Below, one piece after another: positions 5,093-18,097 of a DNA stretch of 21,776 nucleotides. The stretch comes from a virus. Location of the stretch: IMG/VR virus record IMGVR_UViG_3300034106_000517, positions 1 to 21,776 of that record. One strand, given 5' to 3'. The position numbers were made by a program, and so were the translations under genes. Numbering within the stretch: the stretch's first letter is position 1; every line of letters begins with the position of its first letter. The notes beneath the pieces were generated by a model. That model had not been told where the DNA came from. It worked only from the letters and a program-made list of their open reading frames with translations, and ran no database searches.

Positions 5093-7918
5093 ATGACATC
5101 AGTTCCCTCAAATCTGGTTCCGACACGCATTTCGCAGCTCACCGAGTACGATGGGCTGAGCCAAGACGGATACCTGCCTTATGTCCTCAACGGCGTCACC
5201 TACAAGGTCCGCTTCGGTAACATCGCGTCTGTCGGCGCTGTACCATCAAGCCGCACGATTACTGGCGGCGGTGGTCTCACTGGCGGCGGCGATCTGTCTG
5301 CTGACCGCGTCATTTCTATTGCTGCTGGCGGTGTTGGCTTTAGCCAGCTCGCTGATAGCGGTGTCGTTGCTGGCACCTACGGCTCGTCTTCTGAGATCCC
5401 GGTTCTTACGGTTGATGCGAAGGGCCGCGTAGAGATTGCGTCCACAACGGCGATCAGCCTGACCGGATACGTTCCGACAAGCCGCACAATTACCGCTGGC
5501 GCTGGCTTAACTGGTGGCGGAGACCTCTCGGCTAACCGCACGTTTGCATTGACCCTTTCCGCTGCCCTTCCTCAATCGGGCGGCACACCCTCTGCCGGTA
5601 CAAGTTCGGTTGCTGCGCGTGACGATCACGTTCACCCGGCTGTTGACCTCTCAGACACCACGGAAACCTCAGGAGTGCTCCCCTTGGCCCGTGGCGGCAC
5701 CGGCAGCAGTCTAAGCCCTGTTGCCGGTGCCATCCTTTATAGCGATGGCTCAAATGTAGATATGGGGCCGGCAGGCAGCAACAACCAGGTCTTCTTCTCA
5801 ACCGGCGGCGGCACTCCGGTTTGGCGCGACGTCACTGCTGGCACCACTGGTCTTAGCTTTGGCCTCTCTGGTAGCGACTATGTGTTGTCTGGCACACTGG
5901 CCATTAGCAGCGGCGGCACGAACGCCACAACGGTCACGGCGGCCCGCATCAACCTCCTGCCGAGCTACACGGGCAACGCGGGCAAGGTGCTGGCTATCAA
6001 TGCAGGCGCGACTGACCTTGAGTGGATCAGCGTCGCCGGTGCTGGTACCGTAACCTCGATCAACGCAAGTGGCGGCACGACCGGCATGTCGTTTACTGGT
6101 GGGCCGATCACGTCGGCTGGCACGCTGACGCTGGCTGGTACGCTAGGTGCGGTCAACGGCGGCACGGGCATCACGGGCTACACGGTTGGCGAAATCCTCT
6201 TTGCTAACACGACGACGACCCTCGACAAGCTGCCAGTTGGCTCCAACGGCTTCCTGCTGGCGTCCAACGGCACTGCGCCAGCCTACGTCAACCCATCGAC
6301 AATCACTGTCGGTACAGCGACAACGGCGACAACCGCAACCACTGCTACCAACATCGGCGGTGGCGCGGCTGGCTCTATTCCGTACCAGACAGGCGCAGGC
6401 GCGACGACGTTCTTGGGCTCGGGCACCGGCGTGCTGGTTAACGCTGGGGGTAATCCGAGCTACAGCATGACGCCGACGCTCACGTCTGTTGCGCTGACAA
6501 CGGGTACGATTAGCACGACGCCGACAACCGCTACCGAAATTGCGAACAAGAGCTACGTGGACACGCAGGTGTCCTCCGGCATCACGTATCACACGGCGGT
6601 TAAGTACGAAGTTCCAAACACGACGGGCAACCTGACTGCAACGTACAACCAGCCGGGCGGTGCGGGCGTTGGTGTTGGCGCCACACTGACCAATGCGGGG
6701 GCACAAGCCGCATTTGCGCCTGACGGCCCGACAGCTTCGGTTAGCGACCGCATCCTAATCTACAACCAGACCAACGCCTTCGAGAACGGCATCTACGAGG
6801 TTACGACGGTCGGCAGCGGCAGCACGAATTGGGTGCTGACACGCACGACCGACGCCGACACGTACGCATCAAAAGACCCCAATGGCCTCGGTCAGGGCGA
6901 CGCGTTCTTCGTGACGGCCGGCGACACGGGCGCTGGCGAAACCTACGTACTGAACACCGTCGGGACCATCACCTTCGGGGTGACGGCGCTCACCTTCGTG
7001 CAGGTCTCAGACAGCACGCTCTACACGGCGGGCAACGGCCTCCAGCTCACCAGCGGCACGCAGTTTAGCCTGATCAGCCCCGTCGTCACCACCAATGGCG
7101 GCACGGGTCTCACCAGCTTCACATCTGGCGGCGCGGTTTATGCGACATCCACATCAGCCCTGACGACCGGCACGTTGCCGATCGCATCGGGCGGCACCGG
7201 CCAGACAACCGCTTCGGCTGCGTTCAACGCGCTGTCGCCAATCACGTCTACCGGCGATCTTATCCTCGGAACTGGATCGAGCACGGCAGGCCGTCTTGGT
7301 ATCGGTGCTAACGGCTACGTGCTGACCTCGAACGGCACAACGGCCTCGTGGTCGCCTGGCGCGTCGAGCATGGTCTACCCGGCTGCGGGCATCGCGAACA
7401 GCACCGGCACGGCGTGGGCGACGAGCTACGCCGTGAGCGGCACGGGCGACGTGGCCTTGACGACCTCGCCTGTATTCACCACGCCGAACCTCGGCACGCC
7501 TTCTGCGGCCACGCTGACCAACGCCAGCGGCCTGCCGATCTCGACAGGCGTCAGCGGCTTGGGCACAAACGTCGCAACGGCGCTGGGCACCAACGTAGGC
7601 TCTGCCGGCGCTGTTGTCGTCAATGGCGGCGCACTCGGCACGCCGTCCTCTGGCACGCTCACCAGCGCAACAGGCTTGCCGTTGACCACTGGCGTCACTG
7701 GCACGCTGCCGGTCGACAATGGTGGTACGGGGGCATCTACGCTCTCTGCAAACGCTGTTCTTCTCGGCAACGGGACGAGCGCGCTTCAAACGGTTGCGCC
7801 AAGCACCGTAGGTAATGTATTAGTAAGCAACGGAACGACATGGGTTTCACAGGCACCAGCCGCGTCGGGGGTATCGCAAGCACGCGCTACCGCACTGGCG
7901 TTGGTCTTTGGGCTTTAA
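5093..7918 (+). CDS. Long GGTG-repeat tail fibre protein
   Basis: Protein of 941 residues and the largest gene here. The N-terminal 45 residues (R-I-S-Q-L-T ... D-G-Y-L-P-Y-V-L-N-G-V-T-Y-K-V) resemble the N-terminus of the 1034 gene and probably attach the fibre. Two copies of an R-T-I-T-x-G-x-G-L-T-G-G-G-D-L-S motif follow (about 54-69, 131-146), then D-D-H-V-H-P (177-182), an HxH motif that binds metal in some fibre shafts. Repeats built on G-G-T-G or G-G-T-N (P-L-A-R-G-G-T-G, N-G-G-T-G-I-T-G-Y, P-I-A-S-G-G-T-G-Q-T-T-A, P-V-D-N-G-G-T-G) recur to the end. This composition is typical of trimeric fibres that reach the host surface. The short hydrophobic end (T-A-L-A-L-V-F-G-L) resembles that of the 18805 fibre. 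No chaperone gene is obvious beside it. Confidence 0.9.
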   Translation: MTSVPSNLVPTRISQLTEYDGLSQDGYLPYVLNGVTYKVRFGNIASVGAVPSSRTITGGGGLTGGGDLSADRVISIAAGGVGFSQLADSGVVAGTYGSSSEIPVLTVDAKGRVEIASTTAISLTGYVPTSRTITAGAGLTGGGDLSANRTFALTLSAALPQSGGTPSAGTSSVAARDDHVHPAVDLSDTTETSGVLPLARGGTGSSLSPVAGAILYSDGSNVDMGPAGSNNQVFFSTGGGTPVWRDVTAGTTGLSFGLSGSDYVLSGTLAISSGGTNATTVTAARINLLPSYTGNAGKVLAINAGATDLEWISVAGAGTVTSINASGGTTGMSFTGGPITSAGTLTLAGTLGAVNGGTGITGYTVGEILFANTTTTLDKLPVGSNGFLLASNGTAPAYVNPSTITVGTATTATTATTATNIGGGAAGSIPYQTGAGATTFLGSGTGVLVNAGGNPSYSMTPTLTSVALTTGTISTTPTTATEIANKSYVDTQVSSGITYHTAVKYEVPNTTGNLTATYNQPGGAGVGVGATLTNAGAQAAFAPDGPTASVSDRILIYNQTNAFENGIYEVTTVGSGSTNWVLTRTTDADTYASKDPNGLGQGDAFFVTAGDTGAGETYVLNTVGTITFGVTALTFVQVSDSTLYTAGNGLQLTSGTQFSLISPVVTTNGGTGLTSFTSGGAVYATSTSALTTGTLPIASGGTGQTTASAAFNALSPITSTGDLILGTGSSTAGRLGIGANGYVLTSNGTTASWSPGASSMVYPAAGIANSTGTAWATSYAVSGTGDVALTTSPVFTTPNLGTPSAATLTNASGLPISTGVSGLGTNVATALGTNVGSAGAVVVNGGALGTPSSGTLTSATGLPLTTGVTGTLPVDNGGTGASTLSANAVLLGNGTSALQTVAPSTVGNVLVSNGTTWVSQAPAASGVSQARATALALVFGL

Positions 7919-9061: not shown

Positions 9062-10267
9062 ATGTCAAAGCGGTTTCAAGGCGGCATTCTCGGCGTCGGG
9101 TTTAACCCGCTGCAAGCCCCGAACGCGCCTACTATTGGCACGGCTGCGGAAGGTAATGCGTCCGCGACGGTGAGCTTCACCGCGCCGACCAATGTGGGTG
9201 GTTCTGCGATCACCGGCTATACCGGGCGGTCTACTCCGAGCGATGTTGCCGCGACTGCATCCGCTTCACCTTTGACGTTCTCCGGTCTGACCAACGGCAC
9301 CGCGTACACCTTTGGTGTCTTTGCACTGAACAGCTATGGGCCGTCACCGATTAGCGCGTTTAGTAATAGCGTTACCCCGTCAGCGGACGGGACATTTGGT
9401 ATCTTTGCGTTGGGTAGCACCGCCAGTTGTGGCCGCGTCACCACCCGCAACAAATACACCTACTCTGGCGATGCCGTCAGCGCGGGTGGAGCAGCCACAG
9501 CGGCTTCATCCCGAGGTTCCGCTACGGGTAACAGCACCGTTGGTATATTTGCGTTAGGGATTGCACCGTGCCCCGTCACCACTCGCAATAAATACACCTA
9601 CGTAGGCTGTGTAGTCAGCGCGGGCGGAGCAGCTACTGTGGCGTCTTTTTATGGCTCCGCAGCAGGCAATAGCACAGTAGGCATCTTTGCACTTGGTAGG
9701 TTAGTTTGTACTTTTCAAGGGTCAACCACTCGCAATAAGTATACCTACTCAGGTTGCGTTGTAAGCGCAGGTGGAGCTGCTACGGTGGGGTCTGAAGTAG
9801 GCTCTGCGGCAGGCAACAGCACCGTTGGCATTTTTGCTTTGGGGGTCGCCACCAACGGCATTTACACAACCCGCAATAAGTACACTTATTCTGGTTGCGC
9901 GGTAAGTGCGGGGGGAGCGGCAACAGTTGGTTCGTATTATGGCTCCGCTGCGGGAAATAGCACGGTTGGTATTTTTGCGTTAGGGCAGAATAGTTGCGGC
10001 ACTAGATTAACCACCCGCGACAAATACACCTACTCAGGCGATGTCGTCAGCGCAGGGGGCGCGGCAACGGCTGCATCTAAAAATGGTTCTGCGGCAGGCA
10101 ACAGCACCGTTGGCATCTTTGCGTTAAGCTGCACTGCATGCGGCAGAGTTGCTACCCGCAATAAGTACACCTACTCAGGCTGCGTTGTCAGCGCTGGTGG
10201 TGCGGCTACCGCAGGTTCCTTCGAGGGTTCCGCCGCATCCAACGGCATCATCGGCATCACGACATGA
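9062..10267 (+). CDS. Propeller protein A: FN3 domain plus six blade-like repeats (putative receptor-binding fibre)
   Basis: Protein of 401 residues. Residues 1-17 (M-S-K-R-F-Q-G-G-I-L) resemble the start of the 13337 fibre and probably attach to the virion. Residues about 19-107 form a fibronectin type III domain (P-T-I-G-T-A, F-T-A-P, I-T-G-Y, L-T-N-G-T-A-Y-T-F, N-S-Y-G-P-S). From 111 to the end come six repeats starting at 111, 159, 205, 254, 301 and 349. Each reads (T)V-G-I-F-A-L-G, a variable loop of 5-9 residues, T-T-R-N-K-Y-T-Y-S-G, (C/D)-V-V-S-A-G-G-A-A-T, two variable residues, G-S-A-A-G-N-S. A closing strand N-G-I-I-G-I-T follows. Length and strand pattern suggest a six-bladed, kelch-like beta-propeller; this is inference. 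No enzyme motif is visible. It is paired with a second propeller gene at 10887. Confidence 0.8.
   Translation: MSKRFQGGILGVGFNPLQAPNAPTIGTAAEGNASATVSFTAPTNVGGSAITGYTGRSTPSDVAATASASPLTFSGLTNGTAYTFGVFALNSYGPSPISAFSNSVTPSADGTFGIFALGSTASCGRVTTRNKYTYSGDAVSAGGAATAASSRGSATGNSTVGIFALGIAPCPVTTRNKYTYVGCVVSAGGAATVASFYGSAAGNSTVGIFALGRLVCTFQGSTTRNKYTYSGCVVSAGGAATVGSEVGSAAGNSTVGIFALGVATNGIYTTRNKYTYSGCAVSAGGAATVGSYYGSAAGNSTVGIFALGQNSCGTRLTTRDKYTYSGDVVSAGGAATAASKNGSAAGNSTVGIFALSCTACGRVATRNKYTYSGCVVSAGGAATAGSFEGSAASNGIIGITT
9392..10264 (+). repeat. Six blade-coding repeats of propeller protein A
   Basis: Six in-frame units of 46-49 codons. Protein framework is highly conserved but codon choice for the same residues differs between units (the G-I-F-A-L stretch is spelled many ways), so the units are not recent copies. 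Confidence 0.9.
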
Positions 10268-10299
10268 CACACTTCTCATCAAAGCAGGGAGCGTAATCC

Positions 10300-10316
10300 A
10301 TGCCATCGTACAGCGG
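10300..10316 (+). repeat. Direct repeat copy 1 (nuclease gene start)
   Basis: ATGCCxTCGTACAGCGG starts both the homing endonuclease gene here and propeller gene B at 10887-10903, with one mismatch in 17 bases. After this stretch the two proteins diverge completely. Confidence 0.8.
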
Positions 10317-10887
10317 CTCCCTAGCAAAGCCTTCAGTGCTGCCGGATGCGAACGGCAAGCAGTTCTACGCGTACATTCACGCCAAGCCTGATGGGACGCC
10401 GTTCTACATTGGCAAGGGCAATGGCAGGCGCTTGAACATGTTCCATAAGCGGAACCAGCACCACAAGAATGTCGTTGCGAAATACGACAGGCGCAACATT
10501 CTAATCGGGAAGCTGGACTGCTCCGACGAAAGCACCGCGTTCGATTTGGAAATGGGTCTTATCAAGTGCTTGCGTCGCTCAGGTGTTGCCCTCGTTAATC
10601 TTACTGATGGCGGTCACGGCCCCAGCGGGTTGATTGTGACACCAGAGCAGCGTGTTAAGATTTCTGCTACGCTTACGGGCAGAAAGGGCTCACCGCATAC
10701 AGACGCTTCAAAAGCTAAAATTAGCGCTGCTAATAAAGGCCGCAAGCGGACGCCGGAAGAGATACAAAAAATGAGCATAGCAGCTAAAAATAAAAAGCCA
10801 ATTTCCGATGAGACGCGTGCTAAACTCAGCGCTGCCGCTTATGTGTTCTGGGGACGCCGCAAGAAAATGCTGAAGGAGAACATCTGA
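10300..10887 (+). CDS. GIY-YIG homing endonuclease with NUMOD3-type repeats
   Basis: Protein of 195 residues. Residues 22-44 hold the GIY-YIG core (F-Y-A-Y-I-H ... F-Y-I-G-K-G-N-G-R-R), with the catalytic Arg expected at 43-44 and the metal-binding Glu at 84 (F-D-L-E-M-G-L-I-K), followed by N-L-T-D-G-G (100-105). Residues about 114-182 contain three NUMOD3-like helical DNA-binding repeats (H-T-D-A-S-K-A-K-I-S-A-A-N-K-G-R-K, then two diverged copies). Family members cut a specific DNA site and spread their own gene by recombination. It is freestanding, with no intron or intein boundary visible, and lies exactly between the two propeller genes, its stop overlapping the start of the second. Its first six residues (M-P-S-Y-S-G) equal those of propeller B, so it seems to have captured that gene's start. 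Composition is lower in GC than nearby structural genes. Confidence 0.92.
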   Translation: MPSYSGSLAKPSVLPDANGKQFYAYIHAKPDGTPFYIGKGNGRRLNMFHKRNQHHKNVVAKYDRRNILIGKLDCSDESTAFDLEMGLIKCLRRSGVALVNLTDGGHGPSGLIVTPEQRVKISATLTGRKGSPHTDASKAKISAANKGRKRTPEEIQKMSIAAKNKKPISDETRAKLSAAAYVFWGRRKKMLKENI

Positions 10888-10903
10888 TGCCCTCGTACAG
10901 CGG
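10887..10903 (+). repeat. Direct repeat copy 2 (propeller B gene start)
   Basis: Second copy of the 17-base stretch at 10300-10316, one mismatch (A/C at the sixth base). The two copies bracket the homing endonuclease gene. Confidence 0.8.
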
Positions 10904-11843
10904 GGTCTGGTCCCTCTCCCAGCAGTTTCAGGCAGTCGGTCAGGGGCTGTGGCCACCGAACTTCGTGCTGGACGGCACGTTTGGTATATTTGCGTTGGGG
11001 AATGCGCCTTGCGCTTCTACGACCCGTAATAAGTACACATATTCAGGTGACGCTGTCAGCGCCGGTACTGCCGCCACAGCCGCTAATAGATCAGGCGCTG
11101 CGGATGGCAACAGCACGGTCGGTATCTTTGCGTTGGGAATTGCAGCCTGCATCGTCTCTACAACCCGCAATAAATACACCTACGTAGGGTGCGTAGTCAG
11201 CGCCGGAACAGCCTCCACAGTGGGGACCTTCGGTGGCTCTGCTGCGGGAAACAGCACCGTTGGCATCTTTGCAATCGGGCTAAACCCTTGCTTCGTCCGC
11301 GTCACCACCCGCGATAAATACACATATTCAGGAGATGTCGTCAGTGCAGGGGGAGCGGCGACAACGGCATCAGGCGGCGGGTCCGCAGCCGGTAATAGTA
11401 CGGTTGGGATTTTTGCGCTGGGCTTTACGCCCTGTGGTCGTGTTGCCACCCGCAATAAATATACCTACTCAGGTGATGTAGTCAGCGCAGGCGGCGCGGC
11501 TACCGCAGCGTCAAACAATAATTCGGCGGGTGGGAACAGCACTGTTGGTATTTTTGCACTGGGGCAAACGGCTAGTGGTTATGTTACCACCCGCGATAAA
11601 TACACCTATTCAGGATGTGTAGTCAGCGCAGGAGGGGCCGCTACTGTCGCATCAATTTGCGGTTCGGCGGCTGGGAACAGTACGGTTGGCATTTTTGCAA
11701 TAGGATTTACAAGCTGCGGTCGTGTTACTACCCGCAACAAATACACCTACTCAGGATGCGTGGTCAGCGCAGGCGGCGCGGCTACAGTGGCATCATGTGC
11801 CGGTTCCGCCACATCCAACGGCATCGCAGGTATCACCCTTTAA
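10887..11843 (+). CDS. Propeller protein B: short attachment peptide plus six blade-like repeats (putative receptor-binding fibre)
   Basis: Protein of 318 residues and paralogue of the 9062 product without its FN3 domain. Residues 1-23 contain S-G-V-W-S-L ... Q-G-L-W-P, the same short module found at 27-45 of the 13337 fibre, likely a virion attachment piece. Six repeats begin at residues 31, 77, 124, 172, 219 and 267 with the same framework as propeller A and a final N-G-I-A-G-I-T strand. Variation is concentrated in the loop after G-I-F-A-(L/I)-G and in the two residues before G-S-A-A-G-N. I infer a second six-bladed propeller with a different binding surface. The start overlaps the nuclease stop (TGATG) and uses AAGGAG at 10873-10878, which lies inside the nuclease gene, so translation of the two is linked. 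Confidence 0.8.
   Translation: MPSYSGVWSLSQQFQAVGQGLWPPNFVLDGTFGIFALGNAPCASTTRNKYTYSGDAVSAGTAATAANRSGAADGNSTVGIFALGIAACIVSTTRNKYTYVGCVVSAGTASTVGTFGGSAAGNSTVGIFAIGLNPCFVRVTTRDKYTYSGDVVSAGGAATTASGGGSAAGNSTVGIFALGFTPCGRVATRNKYTYSGDVVSAGGAATAASNNNSAGGNSTVGIFALGQTASGYVTTRDKYTYSGCVVSAGGAATVASICGSAAGNSTVGIFAIGFTSCGRVTTRNKYTYSGCVVSAGGAATVASCAGSATSNGIAGITL
10977..11840 (+). repeat. Six blade-coding repeats of propeller protein B
   Basis: Six in-frame units of 46-48 codons. Blades 1, 2 and 6 match the same-numbered blades of protein A best by eye (for example the unique Y-V-G-C in blade 2 of both), whereas middle blades match out of order. Confidence 0.9.
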
Positions 11844-11870: not shown

Positions 11871-12488
11871 ATGAATAGTAAGCCACATCGCAATAATTGC
11901 GACTTTCAGTTAAAGCACTTCATGGCGGGAAGCTGCCACACAGCAGACGGTGCTTGGGCGCTCTTGCACGACCAGAAGATCGACATCGGCGTCAAGATTG
12001 AGCACTCGAAGGCACAAGCCCTACGCCGTCAGGCTAAGGTTCTCACGGCAGAGGCCGTGCTGGCTGACGACAACTCAACTGAAATCGACCGGCTCAAGGC
12101 AGAGGCAGACCTGCTTGAGTGCAACTCGGTCAACGAGGGCTGGGCGTTGAACCACCAAGCCGCACTCAATGAGTACGCATATATTTGCAAGCTGATGGAC
12201 GAGCTTGAGCCGAACCGCAAATACCGCGACCTGCCGTTCCTTGAAGCCAACGAGGCCATGCAGCGCGAAGAGTGGCTGGGCGAGCTGAAGACGCGGGCTG
12301 AGAACTTCCTGCTCACGGCTGGTACAATCCCGCACGATCACCTCAACACCATGCGCTGCCACCCTGACTTCGAGGCGCAGATTGTGCCGCACATCGAGGC
12401 AATCACCCTGAAGGTGATCAATAGCCAAGGCGACCGCACTAGCGTGCTGACGAACATGAAGCCGCTGTTCCTTGAGGATAAGTCGTGA
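11871..12488 (+). CDS. Unknown helical phage protein
   Basis: Protein of 205 residues, mostly helical. It starts with a His/Cys-containing segment (H-R-N-N-C-D-F-Q-L-K-H-F-M-A-G-S-C-H-T-A-D-G-A-W), then a charged helical stretch about 36-120 rich in Ala, Glu, Lys and Leu that could form a coiled coil, then L-P-F-L-E-A-N-E-A-M-Q-R-E-E-W and T-I-P-H-D-H-L-N-T-M-R-C-H-P-D-F. I recall similar proteins in aquatic phages beside a 2OG oxygenase gene, but no function. It overlaps that gene by four bases (GTGA), pointing to coupled translation. A good Shine-Dalgarno (TAGGAGC) precedes the ATG. The repeated His/Cys at the N-terminus could bind metal, which is unproven. Confidence 0.75.
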   Translation: MNSKPHRNNCDFQLKHFMAGSCHTADGAWALLHDQKIDIGVKIEHSKAQALRRQAKVLTAEAVLADDNSTEIDRLKAEADLLECNSVNEGWALNHQAALNEYAYICKLMDELEPNRKYRDLPFLEANEAMQREEWLGELKTRAENFLLTAGTIPHDHLNTMRCHPDFEAQIVPHIEAITLKVINSQGDRTSVLTNMKPLFLEDKS

Positions 12489-13102
12489 GCGATGAGCTGA
12501 CGCCTCTATACTGCTTCCCGACTGTCGTCGTGACGGCCTTCAAGCCTGAGTTCCTCGACGCCGTTCGCGCGGTGTCGGAGGATAACTTCGAGCCGCAGGA
12601 CATCAACGAGATTTACCCAGTCAAGATGACAGGCAACCTCGTTGACGACCCGCGCATGCACGCCTTCTGCGAGTATGTCGGCAGCTCCGCGTGGCAGATA
12701 CTGAGCAATCAGGGCAGCGACATGACTGGCGCGAGCACCTTCTTCACTGAGATGTGGACGCAGGAGCATCACAAGCACTCGCAGATGGAGCAGCACGTCC
12801 ACGGCAACGGGGCGCAGCTCGTCGGCTTCTACTTCCTTGAGACGCCCGAGGACTGCTCCAAGGCGCTGTTCTACGACCCGCGTGCGGGTAAGGTGCAGGT
12901 CAACCTGCCCGAGGCCGACATGGGTCAGGTGACGCCCGCCAGCAACGCTATGGGCATCGAGGCCAAGCCGGGCACGCTGATCTTCGCCAACGCGTGGCTG
13001 CCGCACGGCTTCACCCGCCACGCATCCGACAAGCCCATCCGCTTCGTCCACTTTAACATCGGCGTCGAGTACGCACCCGCTGCCGCAGCGGAGGTCATCT
13101 GA
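12485..13102 (+). CDS. Putative 2OG-Fe(II) oxygenase
   Basis: Protein of 205 residues. It resembles the phage and bacterial 'putative 2OG-Fe(II) oxygenase' family (PF13759-like), double-stranded beta-helix enzymes that hydroxylate a substrate with 2-oxoglutarate, O2 and Fe(II). Visible signature: H104-V-H106-G-N-G-A-Q-L-V-G-F-Y-F-L, L-F-Y-D-P-R (128-133), P-G-T-L-I-F-A-N-A-W-L-P-H174, and R186-F-V-H-F-N-I. The likely iron ligands are His in the first motif and H174; R186 would hold 2-oxoglutarate. The substrate is unknown; a virion protein, the host envelope or a metabolite are all possible. It starts with GTG, overlapping the previous stop, and its own stop overlaps the next ATG. Placed among fibre genes, it may modify virion proteins, but this is speculation. 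Confidence 0.8.
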   Translation: MSDELTPLYCFPTVVVTAFKPEFLDAVRAVSEDNFEPQDINEIYPVKMTGNLVDDPRMHAFCEYVGSSAWQILSNQGSDMTGASTFFTEMWTQEHHKHSQMEQHVHGNGAQLVGFYFLETPEDCSKALFYDPRAGKVQVNLPEADMGQVTPASNAMGIEAKPGTLIFANAWLPHGFTRHASDKPIRFVHFNIGVEYAPAAAAEVI

Positions 13103-15370: not shown

Positions 15371-15733
15371 ATGATCGAACAACTTATCAGCCGCGTGTTC
15401 TATGCACGCAACGTGGCCCACTTCGAGCACTGGCGCGCAAAGGGTGACGGCAGCTACGCGCAGCATAAGACGCTGGGCAAGTTCTACGACGGCGTCATCG
15501 ACGCCATCGACAAGCTCGTGGAGGCCTACCAAGGCGCGTTCAGTCTCATCGGCAACATACCAGCACCCAGCGTGACTGAGCGTGACGTGTTGAAGCTCCT
15601 AGAGGCCGACGCAGAGTGGATCGAGGAGCATCACGAGGACATATGCAAGGGCAACCGCGCAGTGGCCAACCTGATCGACGGTGTCACGGAAGTGTATCTG
15701 ACCACCGTCTATAAGCTGCGGAACCTGAAATGA
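15371..15733 (+). CDS. DUF5856-like helical phage protein
   Basis: Protein of 120 residues, helical throughout. M-I-E-Q-L-I-S-R-V-F-Y-A-R-N-V-A-H-F-E-H-W, S-Y-A-Q-H-K-T-L-G-K-F-Y-D-G-V-I-D-A-I-D-K-L-V-E-A-Y-Q-G matches what I remember as DUF5856, a phage family of unknown function. The repeated His and Glu (A-H-F-E-H-W, A-Q-H, E-E-H-H-E-D) in long helices resemble ferritin-like or Dps-like four-helix proteins, so a metal site is possible but not shown. It follows the fibre gene after nine bases (GTAAGGAAAT leader) and overlaps the start of the first small membrane protein (ATGA), linking it to the lysis region. Confidence 0.75.
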   Translation: MIEQLISRVFYARNVAHFEHWRAKGDGSYAQHKTLGKFYDGVIDAIDKLVEAYQGAFSLIGNIPAPSVTERDVLKLLEADAEWIEEHHEDICKGNRAVANLIDGVTEVYLTTVYKLRNLK

Positions 15734-15891
15734 GCGACGATGTAAACCTGCGCCTGACCACGCACGAGGCCGTCTGCGCTGAGCGCTGGCGGGAAACCAT
15801 ATTGCGCATCAAGCGCATTGAGGCGCTTATGATTGGCAGTGCCGCTGGAATAATTGCGCTTCTGTCCACAATTGCATTCAAGATGGGCTGA
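15730..15891 (+). CDS. Small single-span membrane protein (XhlA/holin-like)
   Basis: Protein of 53 residues. Residues 1-32 are polar and helical (T-T-H-E-A-V-C-A-E-R-W-R-E-T-I-L-R-I-K-R-I-E). Residues 33-51 form one hydrophobic span (A-L-M-I-G-S-A-A-G-I-I-A-L-L-S-T-I-A-F) followed by K-M-G. That order, an amphipathic helix and then a C-terminal membrane segment, is the layout of XhlA-type holin-associated proteins. Being the first of a run of small membrane genes that leads to the endolysin supports a lysis role. The start overlaps the previous stop. Holin versus accessory membrane protein cannot be decided from sequence. Confidence 0.7.
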   Translation: MSDDVNLRLTTHEAVCAERWRETILRIKRIEALMIGSAAGIIALLSTIAFKMG

Positions 15892-15892
15892 C

Positions 15893-16075
15893 ATGAGGGT
15901 CGCGTCAATTTTAGCAGTGCTGCTGTTTTTGTTGGGCTGTCAGGACCGCTACCGCTACGATTGCCAAGATCCTGCGAACTGGCAGCAGGAAATCTGCAAG
16001 AAGCCCAAGTGCGTCGCTATGGGCTACTGCACCGAGTGGTTGATAAATACGGGCGAAGAAGATGAAGCCGACTAG
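15893..16075 (+). CDS. Small lipoprotein of the lysis region
   Basis: Protein of 60 residues with a lipoprotein signal: M-R-V-A-S-I-L-A-V-L-L-F-L-L-G-C17, lipobox L-L-G-C. The mature part is short and Cys-containing (D-R-Y-R-Y-D-C-Q-D-P-A-N-W-Q-Q-E-I-C-K-K-P-K-C ... Y-C-T-E-W-L-I), so two disulfides are possible in the periplasm. I recall such proteins near holin genes of aquatic phages; the role is unproven and could be envelope protection or superinfection control. It is distinct from the Rz1-like lipoprotein at 17753. It starts one base after the previous stop and its 3' end overlaps the next gene by 14 bases in another frame. Confidence 0.75.
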   Translation: MRVASILAVLLFLLGCQDRYRYDCQDPANWQQEICKKPKCVAMGYCTEWLINTGEEDEAD

Positions 16076-16346
16076 CGAATGGTCACCAGAGGAACTGCTG
16101 CGGTTCATCGTCGGCATCGTACTGTCGCTGACGCTTACATTTATTGTGGCGACTGTGCTATACTCGTTGGTGTTTGTGTCGCAGCCGATGGAGGGGCAGT
16201 CCCCAAATGACGCTGAGTTTTTTAAGCTGATTAACCCTATTGCGACGTTCATCGTCGGGGCGTTGGCAGGACTTATGGCTGGGCAGGGCAGCGGCTCGAT
16301 CAAGCCCAAAAAGACAGAAGGAGAAGAAGATGAACTTCCTAAATAG
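16062..16346 (+). CDS. Two-span holin-like membrane protein
   Basis: Protein of 94 residues. A short polar N-terminus (M-K-P-T-S-E-W-S-P-E-E) leads to a first membrane span at about 13-40, a polar loop (Q-P-M-E-G-Q-S-P-N-D), a second span at about 55-75 (F-F-K-L-I-N-P-I-A-T-F-I-V-G-A-L-A-G-L-M-A-G) and a charged tail. Topology and size are holin-like. The second span, N-P-x-x-x-x-x-I-V-G-A-x-x-G-L, is repeated in the next protein, so the two are tandem paralogues. It overlaps the genes on both sides (14 bases upstream, 17 downstream), a sign of coupled translation. Its function is inferred from topology and neighbours. Confidence 0.7.
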   Translation: MKPTSEWSPEELLRFIVGIVLSLTLTFIVATVLYSLVFVSQPMEGQSPNDAEFFKLINPIATFIVGALAGLMAGQGSGSIKPKKTEGEEDELPK

Positions 16347-16821
16347 TTTTGAAAGCAGACAAGACGGCGTCAACGATACCGTTGAGTTTGTCATCCGCGT
16401 TGCCATCGTCACGCTGTCTGCGGTTATCCTTGTCGTCGTGCTGGCGCTTGCCGTTGGCCTATTTGTGTCGAATGACGTTGTGAGCAGCGCAGCTATCCTT
16501 GAGACGGTCAACCCTGCGTTCCAGACGATCATCGGTGCGTTTGTCGGTCTGCTTGGCGGCCTGAGCCTCAACGCCAATGCGCGTGACAAAGAACCCGACC
16601 CAGAAGCGCCGACACCGGAACCAGAACCAGAAGTCGGTGAGTATAATCCTGTGCCGTTGGTCCGCCCTGCTGGGACGATCTTCCCTAAAGGCGACATTGA
16701 AGAAGACGATGACGACATGGAGCCTTGGGAGAAGTACCGCAACGACCTGCGCTATGACGTAAACGGCGATGGCGTGGTCGATGAGGCTGACTTCCCTGAC
16801 TGGCGCAACCCAGCAGCGTAA
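16330..16821 (+). CDS. Membrane protein with C-terminal EF-hand-like loop
   Basis: Protein of 163 residues. Membrane spans lie at about 22-46 and 60-80; the second (N-P-A-F-Q-T-I-I-G-A-F-V-G-L-L-G-G) is paralogous to the protein before it. Then comes a Pro/Glu linker (P-E-A-P-T-P-E-P-E-P-E), an acidic stretch (E-E-D-D-D-D) and, at 143-154, D-V-N-G-D-G-V-V-D-E-A-D, a canonical EF-hand/dockerin-type calcium loop with all ligand positions filled. The combination suggests a calcium-sensitive membrane protein in the lysis region, perhaps a holin or holin regulator. I know no characterised phage protein of this design. AAGGAGAAG precedes the ATG; the stop overlaps the next start (TAATG). Confidence 0.7.
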   Translation: MNFLNSFESRQDGVNDTVEFVIRVAIVTLSAVILVVVLALAVGLFVSNDVVSSAAILETVNPAFQTIIGAFVGLLGGLSLNANARDKEPDPEAPTPEPEPEVGEYNPVPLVRPAGTIFPKGDIEEDDDDMEPWEKYRNDLRYDVNGDGVVDEADFPDWRNPAA

Positions 16822-16991
16822 TGGCGGGCGATCTCTCCACCGTTGAACTGATTGGCCAGCTTTGGCCAATCGTATTGGCGTTTATTACGCTGACCATCAT
16901 CCTCGCCAAGATGGATGTGCGTCTCGCCGTGGTTGAGGAAAAGATTAAGACGCTCTTTGAGCTATGGAATAATCGGAAGGACGATAAATGA
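16821..16991 (+). CDS. Single-span holin-like protein directly before the endolysin
   Basis: Protein of 56 residues. Residues 9-28 form one membrane span (E-L-I-G-Q-L-W-P-I-V-L-A-F-I-T-L-T-I-I-L), followed by an amphipathic helix (M-D-V-R-L-A-V-V-E-E-K-I-K-T-L-F-E-L-W) and a basic end (N-N-R-K-D-D-K). Its position immediately upstream of the endolysin with an ATGA overlap makes it a strong holin candidate, of the small class with one span. Its start overlaps the stop of the EF-hand membrane gene. Sequence alone does not separate it from an XhlA-type accessory protein. Confidence 0.7.
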   Translation: MAGDLSTVELIGQLWPIVLAFITLTIILAKMDVRLAVVEEKIKTLFELWNNRKDDK

Positions 16992-17599
16992 GCCTGATTA
17001 ACCTTCAACAGAAAATAGGAGTAACGGCAGATGGCGCGTTCGGCCCGGGCACATTTAAGGCGGCTGCGGCTTATTATAAGCTATCACCTAATCGTGCAGC
17101 GCATTTCTTTGCTCAGACAGCGCATGAAAGTGGCGGCTTCAAGGCTTTTAGCGAGAACTTGAACTACGGCGCGAAGGGGCTGCGCGGTATCTTCCGCAAG
17201 TACTTCCCGACCGACGCACTGGCTCGTGCTTACGAACGCCAGCCAAAGAAGATCGCCAACCGCGTCTATGGTAACCGTATGGGCAATGGGCCGGAAAGCT
17301 CAGGCGAAGGCTTCGCTTTTCGCGGCCGAGGGGCCCTCCAGCTCACCGGGAAATTTAACTACCAAGCGTTTTCCGATTACATTGGCCGGCCGGACATCAT
17401 GGACAACCCTGACCTTGTCGCTACCGAACTGGCCTTCGAGAGCGCCCTGTGGTTCTTCGATAAGAACAAGCTCTGGTCGATCTGCGATCAAGGCACAGGC
17501 GATGCTGCCATCCTCGCGCTGACAAAGCGGATCAATGGCGGCACGCATGGCCTTGACGACCGTAAGGCAAAGACGAAGAAGTACGCAGCATGGCTTTAA
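16988..17599 (+). CDS. GH19-family endolysin
   Basis: Protein of 203 residues, a glycoside hydrolase family 19 (chitinase-like) endolysin that cleaves peptidoglycan glycan chains. Residues 1-30 resemble the end of a peptidoglycan-binding fold (L-Q-Q-K-I-G-V-T-A-D-G-A-F-G-P-G-T). The catalytic region starts with F-A-Q-T-A-H-E47-S-G-G-F and S-E56-N-L-N-Y; E47 and E56 are the expected acid and base. R-G-R-G-A-L-Q-L-T-G-K-F-N-Y (112-125) is the family's substrate-groove motif. There is no signal peptide, so release needs a holin; candidates precede it. It overlaps the holin-like gene upstream (ATGA) and the spanin gene downstream by ten bases. Confidence 0.93.
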   Translation: MSLINLQQKIGVTADGAFGPGTFKAAAAYYKLSPNRAAHFFAQTAHESGGFKAFSENLNYGAKGLRGIFRKYFPTDALARAYERQPKKIANRVYGNRMGNGPESSGEGFAFRGRGALQLTGKFNYQAFSDYIGRPDIMDNPDLVATELAFESALWFFDKNKLWSICDQGTGDAAILALTKRINGGTHGLDDRKAKTKKYAAWL

Positions 17600-17988
17600 T
17601 AAACCCAATCATGATATATGGTTTAGCAGGCGCTTTGATTATCGGCGCTGCTTCTGGCTACAAGGTTCGCGACTGGCAGTGCGATGCCGCGTTCGCAAAG
17701 GCGCTGGAGAAGGCTGAAAAGCTACGTGTTAAAAAACAAGAGGTGGTAGACAATGTTTCGCAAACCTACGAATTTGAACGGGATCAAGCCAATGTGGTGG
17801 CAACCGAACGCACCAACACCATACGTGAAATATATAAAACGGCTCCTGCCGTTCCTGTTGATTGCGCTGGTTCTGATGCTTTGCGCCGGGTGCTCGAAAG
17901 CGGTGTCAGTGACGCCAATGCCGCTGCCACCGGCGAACCTAGCGGCAAAGTGCCCGACACTTCAAAACCCACCAAAGGTAATGATTGA
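17590..17988 (+). CDS. Inner-membrane spanin (Rz-like)
   Basis: Protein of 132 residues with the layout of an i-spanin: a short N-terminus, one membrane anchor at about 5-24 (N-P-I-M-I-Y-G-L-A-G-A-L-I-I-G-A-A-S-G-Y), then a charged coiled-coil region (A-F-A-K-A-L-E-K-A-E-K-L-R-V-K-K-Q-E-V-V) and a periplasmic end with V-D-C-A-G-S-D-A-L-R-R-V-L-E-S, common in Rz-like proteins. With the o-spanin read from another frame inside its 3' half, it would fuse inner and outer membranes at the last step of lysis in a Gram-negative host. It overlaps the endolysin by ten bases. Confidence 0.82.
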   Translation: MALINPIMIYGLAGALIIGAASGYKVRDWQCDAAFAKALEKAEKLRVKKQEVVDNVSQTYEFERDQANVVATERTNTIREIYKTAPAVPVDCAGSDALRRVLESGVSDANAAATGEPSGKVPDTSKPTKGND

Positions 17989-18097
17989 CCCTGAGCGCGC
18001 GCTTTGGGAAGCTGACATCATCGCAAAGTATACAGACTGTAGCGTCAAGCATCGCCTGACGGTTAAGGCATGGGTAGACGCAGTAGCTGTAAAATGA
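17753..18097 (+). CDS. Outer-membrane spanin (Rz1-like lipoprotein), overlapping the i-spanin gene
   Basis: Protein of 114 residues in a different frame from the i-spanin gene, overlapping it over 236 bases and extending beyond. A basic segment leads into a hydrophobic stretch with lipobox L-M-L-C-A-G-C47, then a Pro-rich start of the mature protein (T-P-M-P-L-P-P-A-N-L) and a helical end (E-A-D-I-I-A-K-Y-T-D-C-S-V-K-H-R-L). This is the Rz1 type, anchored in the outer membrane and binding the i-spanin. I favour the ATG at 17753, preceded by AGAGGTGG at good spacing; an ATG at 17792 would give a signal peptide of more usual length but has a poor Shine-Dalgarno. The pair implies a Gram-negative host. 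Confidence 0.82.
   Translation: MFRKPTNLNGIKPMWWQPNAPTPYVKYIKRLLPFLLIALVLMLCAGCSKAVSVTPMPLPPANLAAKCPTLQNPPKVMIDPERALWEADIIAKYTDCSVKHRLTVKAWVDAVAVK

Follow-up and report, generated by a model that had tools for sequence, protein, structure and literature searches.

A conserved calcium-type loop on a two-span membrane protein encoded with the GH19 endolysin of a viral lysis cassette

When holins open is a long-standing question, work on which has centered on membrane potential and antiholins. The locus described here raises a related one, namely what a calcium-type loop does on a small membrane protein of a lysis cassette. In the loci examined, the strongly selected tail that carries this loop is confined to two-span proteins of lysis cassettes with a neighboring GH19 endolysin; it offers a direct handle on whether calcium enters the decision of a holin to open, and it hints that calcium may help control the opening of the host cell. 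The window, meaning the whole stretch of DNA that was analyzed, is virus record IMGVR_UViG_3300034106_000517, with a length of 21,776 bases. A preliminary description had proposed that two tandem membrane proteins in it form a lysis pair, the first a holin and the second its calcium-responsive regulator. Our analysis retains the lysis cassette as the setting, the presence of a holin-type protein and selection on a calcium-type loop; it does not support the division of the pair into holin and regulator.

The lysis cassette and its two-span membrane family

The cassette genes, all on the + strand, encode in order an XhlA-like protein, a lipoprotein-like protein, three proteins called here P1, P2 and P3, a GH19 endolysin and an Rz/Rz1 spanin pair. 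Overlaps of 17 bases (P1/P2), 1 base (P2/P3), 4 bases (P3/GH19) and 10 bases (GH19/Rz) connect the genes as in a coupled lysis operon. The tandem frames lie where the preliminary description had placed them: P1 (94 residues, 16,062–16,346) is a two-span membrane protein without the calcium loop that matches phrog_25359, function unknown (E = 6e-14), and P2 (163 residues, 16,330–16,821) is a two-span membrane protein extended by an acidic linker and a calcium-type tail. The P2 start codon, an ATG at 16,330, is preceded by AAGGAG at 16,318–16,323, and M1 is invariant across 30 aligned homologs. A holin-like gene and then an endolysin had been read downstream, and this order is confirmed by P3 (56 residues, 16,821–16,991; phrog_4955, function unknown, E = 0.003), a one-span protein and optional member of the cassette, and by the GH19 endolysin (203 residues, 16,988–17,599; Pfam E = 6e-11, phrog_181 endolysin E = 3e-60). 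The Rz-like spanin (17,590–17,988; phrog_1152, E = 2e-4) is overlapped in another frame by the Rz1-like spanin (17,753–18,097; phrog_456, E = 5e-7; LysC, E = 0.0025, below the curated cut-off), and the presence of this pair suggests a Gram-negative host. Five metagenome-assembled contigs of the P2 family (L382–L386) are binned as Alphaproteobacteria, Opitutae, Bacteroidia, Rhodobacteraceae and a beta proteobacterium, some of them at least probably mis-binned, and because the bins span such disparate taxa no host can be named.

The cassette begins with a one-span protein (15,730–15,891) that we presume to be XhlA-like, which has no significant family in Pfam, PHROGs or NCBIfam; its weak NCBIfam match to NF048001, the GTA head formation protein RCAP_rcc01685 family, is below the cut-off (E = 0.0019). 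The small lipoprotein-like gene that follows (15,893–16,075), its lipobox read by eye, is a companion of P1. Among the best loci listed that were anchored on the endolysin it is present in 45 of 70 and P1 in 46 of 70, and the pair recurs in Actinomycetia phage DSL-LC01 and in two Manatee Spring phage records (L157, L158 and L159). Upstream of the cassette lie a 2OG-Fe(II) oxygenase-like gene (12,485–13,102), a DUF5856 gene (15,371–15,733) and a GIY-YIG/NUMOD3 endonuclease-like gene (10,300–10,887; NUMOD3 E = 6e-9, GIY-YIG by eye). The last is flanked by two genes with common repeats, GNSTVGIFALG...TTRNKYTYSG...VSAGGAAT (9,062–11,843), and its product and the next both start with MPSYSG.

P1 and P2 are, on profile evidence, divergent paralogs within one two-span membrane family. 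The second-span motif that had been noted in both is real, with the spacing N-P-x4-I-(V/I)-G-A-x2-G-L (NPIATFIVGALAGL / NPAFQTIIGAFVGL) rather than the x5 first given. Pairwise BLASTP aligns the membrane parts at 25% identity (E = 2e-4), and the P1 profile matches the loop-free relatives of P2 with a probability of 92.6% over 67 columns (E = 5e-7), the direct P1–P2 profile match being weaker (79%, 35 columns); six reversed-profile controls gave probabilities of 0.5–23%, against 79–100% in six real comparisons. The loop-free proteins form a third branch, a core of ~74 residues that matches P2 at E = 3e-24 and P1 at the E-value of 5e-7 just given, and the core profile also matches 30 of 37 P1-type proteins from loci of another GH19 type (E = 2e-4 to 6e-3). 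A GxxxG motif is present in the second-span region of 30/30 P2, 10/10 P1, 14/14 core and 6/7 second-subfamily sequences. In the P2 model the first membrane helix comprises residues 15–45 (16,372–16,464) and the second, which contains the GxxxG, residues 53–86 (16,486–16,587). The Pro/Glu/Asp linker that follows (residues 87–126, 16,588–16,707) is disordered in the model (pLDDT <50) and ranges from 24 to 69 residues, median 50, in 199 relatives.

P2 exhibits the features of a class II holin, namely two spans, small size, a charged C-terminus and a position in a lysis cassette beside an endolysin, and it is probably the main holin-type protein of this cassette. It has no significant holin family match in Pfam, PHROGs or NCBIfam, and its best PHROG match, of unknown function, has an E-value of 0.0073; the loop-free core reaches only E = 0.054 with the holin family phrog_1527, and the P1-type protein of L470 reaches E = 0.004 with the holin family phrog_9987. 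Positive charges flank the P2 spans and avoid the loop between them (mean K/R counts of 2.2 N-terminal to the spans, 0.26 between and 2.0 after, in 119 sequences), and on this basis the tail is probably cytoplasmic. Sequences of the second subfamily show the bias less strongly (4, 1 and 1; 34 of 53 sequences parsed), and the loop-free cores lack it (1.9, 1.8 and 1.5).

A known protein of similar layout is gp11 of mycobacteriophage D29, which the relevant passages of PMC9671378 present as a two-span N-in/C-in holin with a long C-terminal domain. Both gp11 and P2 have two spans, a long C-terminal region (81 residues in gp11) and a place in a lysis cassette, and both ends are predicted inside, in P2 tentatively from the charge bias; as compared by description, they differ in that the C-terminal domain of gp11 contains a coiled coil (PMC9671378). 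The words "calcium" and "EF-hand" have no occurrences in that paper. An essential cytoplasmic region is reported for the phage T4 holin in the abstract of PMC12162936. No holin with a calcium loop is described in the titles and abstract openings of the literature matches listed.

Conservation and fold of the calcium-type tail

The tail contains a conserved module (residues 130–159, 16,717–16,806) within which lies the calcium-type loop DVNGDGVVDEAD (residues 143–154, 16,756–16,791). The preliminary description had assigned a Pro/Glu linker and a complete loop to P2 and not to P1, and both are present as D-x-N-x-D-G-V-V-D-x-x-D preceded by the linker. The loop is the sole match to the EF-loop pattern, which we take to be PROSITE PS00018, among the 164 stop-to-stop frames of at least 60 residues in the window, and the pattern arises in 170 of 200,000 shuffles of P2 residues 88–163.

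The loop is found between LR[YWF] and F in 129 of 134 distinct P2 sequences, the other five running off the contig end. Its ligand positions are nearly invariant in these 129 sequences (D1 in 129; N3 in 123 and T3 in 6; D5 in 129; D9 in 128; D12 in 128), and positions 10 and 11, which are not ligands, vary freely; these counts, like those of the 53 second-subfamily sequences, require [LM]R[YWF] and F on either side of the loop and leave the first Asp free. In a wider set, for which the search pattern presupposes the first Asp and the membrane part, 198 of 199 distinct sequences are ligand-compatible, and the exception is D12V. From 2,500 random pairs of the 129 sequences, compared without a tree, pN/pS is 0.08 for the tail (residues 127–159), 0.24 for the membrane part and 0.51 for the linker, with pS between 0.55 and 0.69; the 12-residue loop by itself, free positions included, has a pN/pS of 0.135. 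As judged from these patterns, the P2 loop is under strong selection. Loss of the ligands in homologs had been named at the outset as grounds for doubting a calcium-related role; the ligands are instead kept, with a loop in 129/129 P2 tails.

A chance origin of the loop is ruled out by its conservation, the pN/pS values and the shuffles. Close kinship as the sole reason for the conservation is likewise ruled out, since synonymous differences are high and the ligand positions almost never change. Bias from the use of tail-derived seed peptides was checked with loci found through P1, through GH19 and through the tail itself. All 80 of the best P1-anchored loci listed contain P2, with 74 intact loops, five cut by contig ends and one D12V, and all 78 P2 genes in the best 80 endolysin-anchored loci have the loop (71 by pattern, seven read individually). 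All 53 distinct sequences of the second subfamily (best 80 loci) have the loop, and 79 of these 80 loci have GH19, the contig ending in the last.

The tail modeled separately has a pLDDT of 92–94 in its middle and only short helices, the alignments behind the models being shallow. A fold search with this model returned two EF-hand proteins at E-values of 7 and 8, and none with a Z score of 2 or more. At E-values up to 5 the tail profile gave 54 matches to solved structures (best E = 0.012); the majority bear names of calcium-binding or dockerin chains and align on the loop, and at least one (TetO) is of another kind. The whole P2 alignment gave no match to solved structures. EF-hand_1 is matched by 30 of 35 tails and Dockerin_1 by 21 of 35, at E-values up to 1 (best for Dockerin_1, 0.004). 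The tail of the window scores below both curated cut-offs (15.2 against 25.4 bits for EF-hand_1; 17.9 against 22.9 bits for Dockerin_1), and its Dockerin_1 match covers only profile positions 34–49 of 57. Like members of the EF-hand superfamily, P2 has a 12-residue loop with ligands at 1, 3, 5, 9 and 12; unlike them, it has a single, unpaired loop per chain, with short flanking helices in the model. Because of the sub-cut-off score, the short helices and the lack of a significant fold match, we call the modeled tail an EF-type loop and not an EF-hand domain.

Searches of named phages gave no match for P2 and one match, at an E-value of 5, for its membrane part. Two uncharacterized phage proteins, A0A6J5MK48 and A0A6J5NMR5, are 63% and 38% identical to P2 over nearly its whole length and are evidently relatives; the latter, from an uncultured Caudovirales phage, bears the name "EF-hand domain-containing protein". 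Separately, a holin-like protein encoded at 5,463–5,765 of L157 (OQ999401) matches the holin family phrog_443 (E = 1.5e-5) and, most strongly, phrog_26427 (E = 5e-18), a family labeled nuclease. It contains DGKLDADEI, half an EF-type loop, and tblastn finds it in no other phage record.

Association of the tail with the GH19 endolysin

Each scan kept its best 80 loci. P2 precedes GH19 in all 70 of the best endolysin-anchored loci listed that have at least 900 bases upstream; of the full 80 it is present in 78, and in the other two GH19 starts close to the contig edge (118 and 48 bases). Where at least 1,500 bases are available upstream, P2 is present in 61/61 of the best loci listed, P1 in 40/61 and P3 in 18/61, with neither P1 nor P3 in 14/61, so that P2 is the constant member of the cassette and P1 and P3 are dispensable. 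The assignment of P1 as holin and P2 as regulator is downgraded, because P1 is lost (absent from 21 of the 61) where P2 is kept.

More broadly, P1, P3 or another protein could be the holin and P2 a calcium-responsive regulator, either antiholin-like or a co-holin. P1 and P2 are paralogs, loop-free relatives of P2 adjoin a three-span holin in L466 and L388, and the abstract of PMC13056207 describes a pair of holin-like proteins that regulates lysis, LysF1a and LysF1b of F1 mycobacteriophages, both needed for efficient lysis. Like P1 and P2, those proteins are adjacent small membrane proteins of one cassette, and one of them is two-span and N-in-C-in; unlike P1 and P2, they are a two-span and one-span pair, with no calcium loop mentioned in the abstract (PMC13056207). 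Against a regulatory role stand the constancy of P2 in the counts above and the six second-subfamily loci that were read, in which no other two-span protein is found from 1.8 kb upstream to 1.9 kb downstream. We regard this alternative as doubtful.

The tail itself follows the endolysin. In the best 80 of at least 120 tail-anchored loci, 78 tails are on the P2 membrane family and two are cut at the 5' end, and GH19 is no more than 400 bases away in 79, the remaining contig stopping after a further 70 bases. Apart from this set, GH19 is present in 362 of the 377 loci listed in the anchored sets combined, and the 15 that lack it stop no more than 400 bases past the tail or before the tail; the sets overlap with many contigs recurring, so these counts are not independent events. 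Another GH19 type has a P1-type protein encoded up to ~1.1 kb upstream in 37 of its best 80 loci listed, and the tail profile matches none of those 80. Between the window and L302, the one pair in which two membrane types were compared, identity is 25% in the membrane part (16/64), 81% in the tail (29/36) and 90% in GH19 (183/203). By this comparison the tail has been inherited with the GH19 endolysin, and likeness of tail and endolysin beside a divergent membrane part suggests that the tail acts with the endolysin or at its release, although the two are adjacent and neighbors recombine together, so that co-inheritance need not mean interaction. The reading we favor, at a little under an even chance, makes P2 a holin-type protein and has its calcium-type tail act together with the GH19 endolysin.

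The same co-inheritance would fit a constitutive loop that calcium stabilizes without serving as a signal; such a loop could have a structural role or dock, for example, the endolysin or, should the tail lie outside, an envelope component. The weak tail matches include dockerin type I, a docking domain; dockerin, however, has two loops, whereas P2 has one and scores below the cut-off, and the P2 charge distribution would place the tail inside, where calcium is low. We consider a purely structural loop unlikely. Even a tail that did no more than dock the endolysin would be a holin–endolysin tether, of a kind we do not know from described phages. A dockerin-like gene 40 is mentioned in a passage on integration in PMC3558961.

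The two-span core also occurs without the tail. Among 82 loop-free loci listed, the core is complete in 81 and the loop present in 0/81, and GH19 is near none of the 82, partly because some contigs end soon after the core. The endolysins of five such loci tested are phage lysozyme (L390 and L439), M15 (L466 and L388) and GH108 (L387). A GTA-type three-span holin (Pfam) is encoded in two of three loop-free neighborhoods tested (L466 and L388), and a separate holin there may make the two-span protein an accessory one. In virus records, which may be fragments, the three-span holin is found in none of 22 with the tail and in one of two loop-free controls, being absent from that of L390; one GH19 is present in each of the 22 and none in the two loop-free records. 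Since loop-free relatives adjoin lysozyme, M15 and GH108 endolysins, P2 is a lysis-cassette protein with an added tail; the two-span core is an old protein of such cassettes, in places the companion of another holin, and P2 is its tailed form. The core gene and a P1 homolog are unannotated in GenBank records MW202520 (L387), MW202753 (L388) and MW202675 (L158).

A function of P2 unrelated to lysis, such as membrane remodeling or exclusion of other phages, with its place in the cassette due to chance gene order, would agree with the absence of a lysis function for P2 in the databases and is highly improbable given that the family lies beside four endolysin types, GH19 included, and that in 43 of the best endolysin-anchored loci listed, those without P3, the P2 alignment ends 9–18 bases before GH19.

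Proposed role of the tail in lysis

In the favored reading, with P2 as a holin-type protein acting with the endolysin, the two spans, the second with its conserved GxxxG, would bear a flexible acidic tether ending in one calcium-type loop. Free calcium is low in the cytoplasm until the membrane is breached, and the cytoplasmic loop would for this reason be mostly empty before the breach. The first breach would admit calcium, around which the loop is predicted to fold, and the folded loop may promote or commit opening and passage of the GH19 endolysin, with an effect on the timing of lysis. Tails possibly pair within the holin assembly, and the many tails gathered there could offset the presence of one loop per chain.

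A bolder and rather improbable form of this proposal is a calcium-gated holin, in which tails are unfolded until a leak admits calcium, upon which neighboring tails would fold, pair, latch the hole and hand over the GH19 endolysin. If it is true, a gradual leak would be turned into a one-way lysis decision set by the surrounding calcium, and tail and endolysin would be inherited as a single device able to fit different holin membrane parts. Relatives of both proteins are numerous in viral metagenomes, with 120 matching stretches for P2 and 310 for P1.
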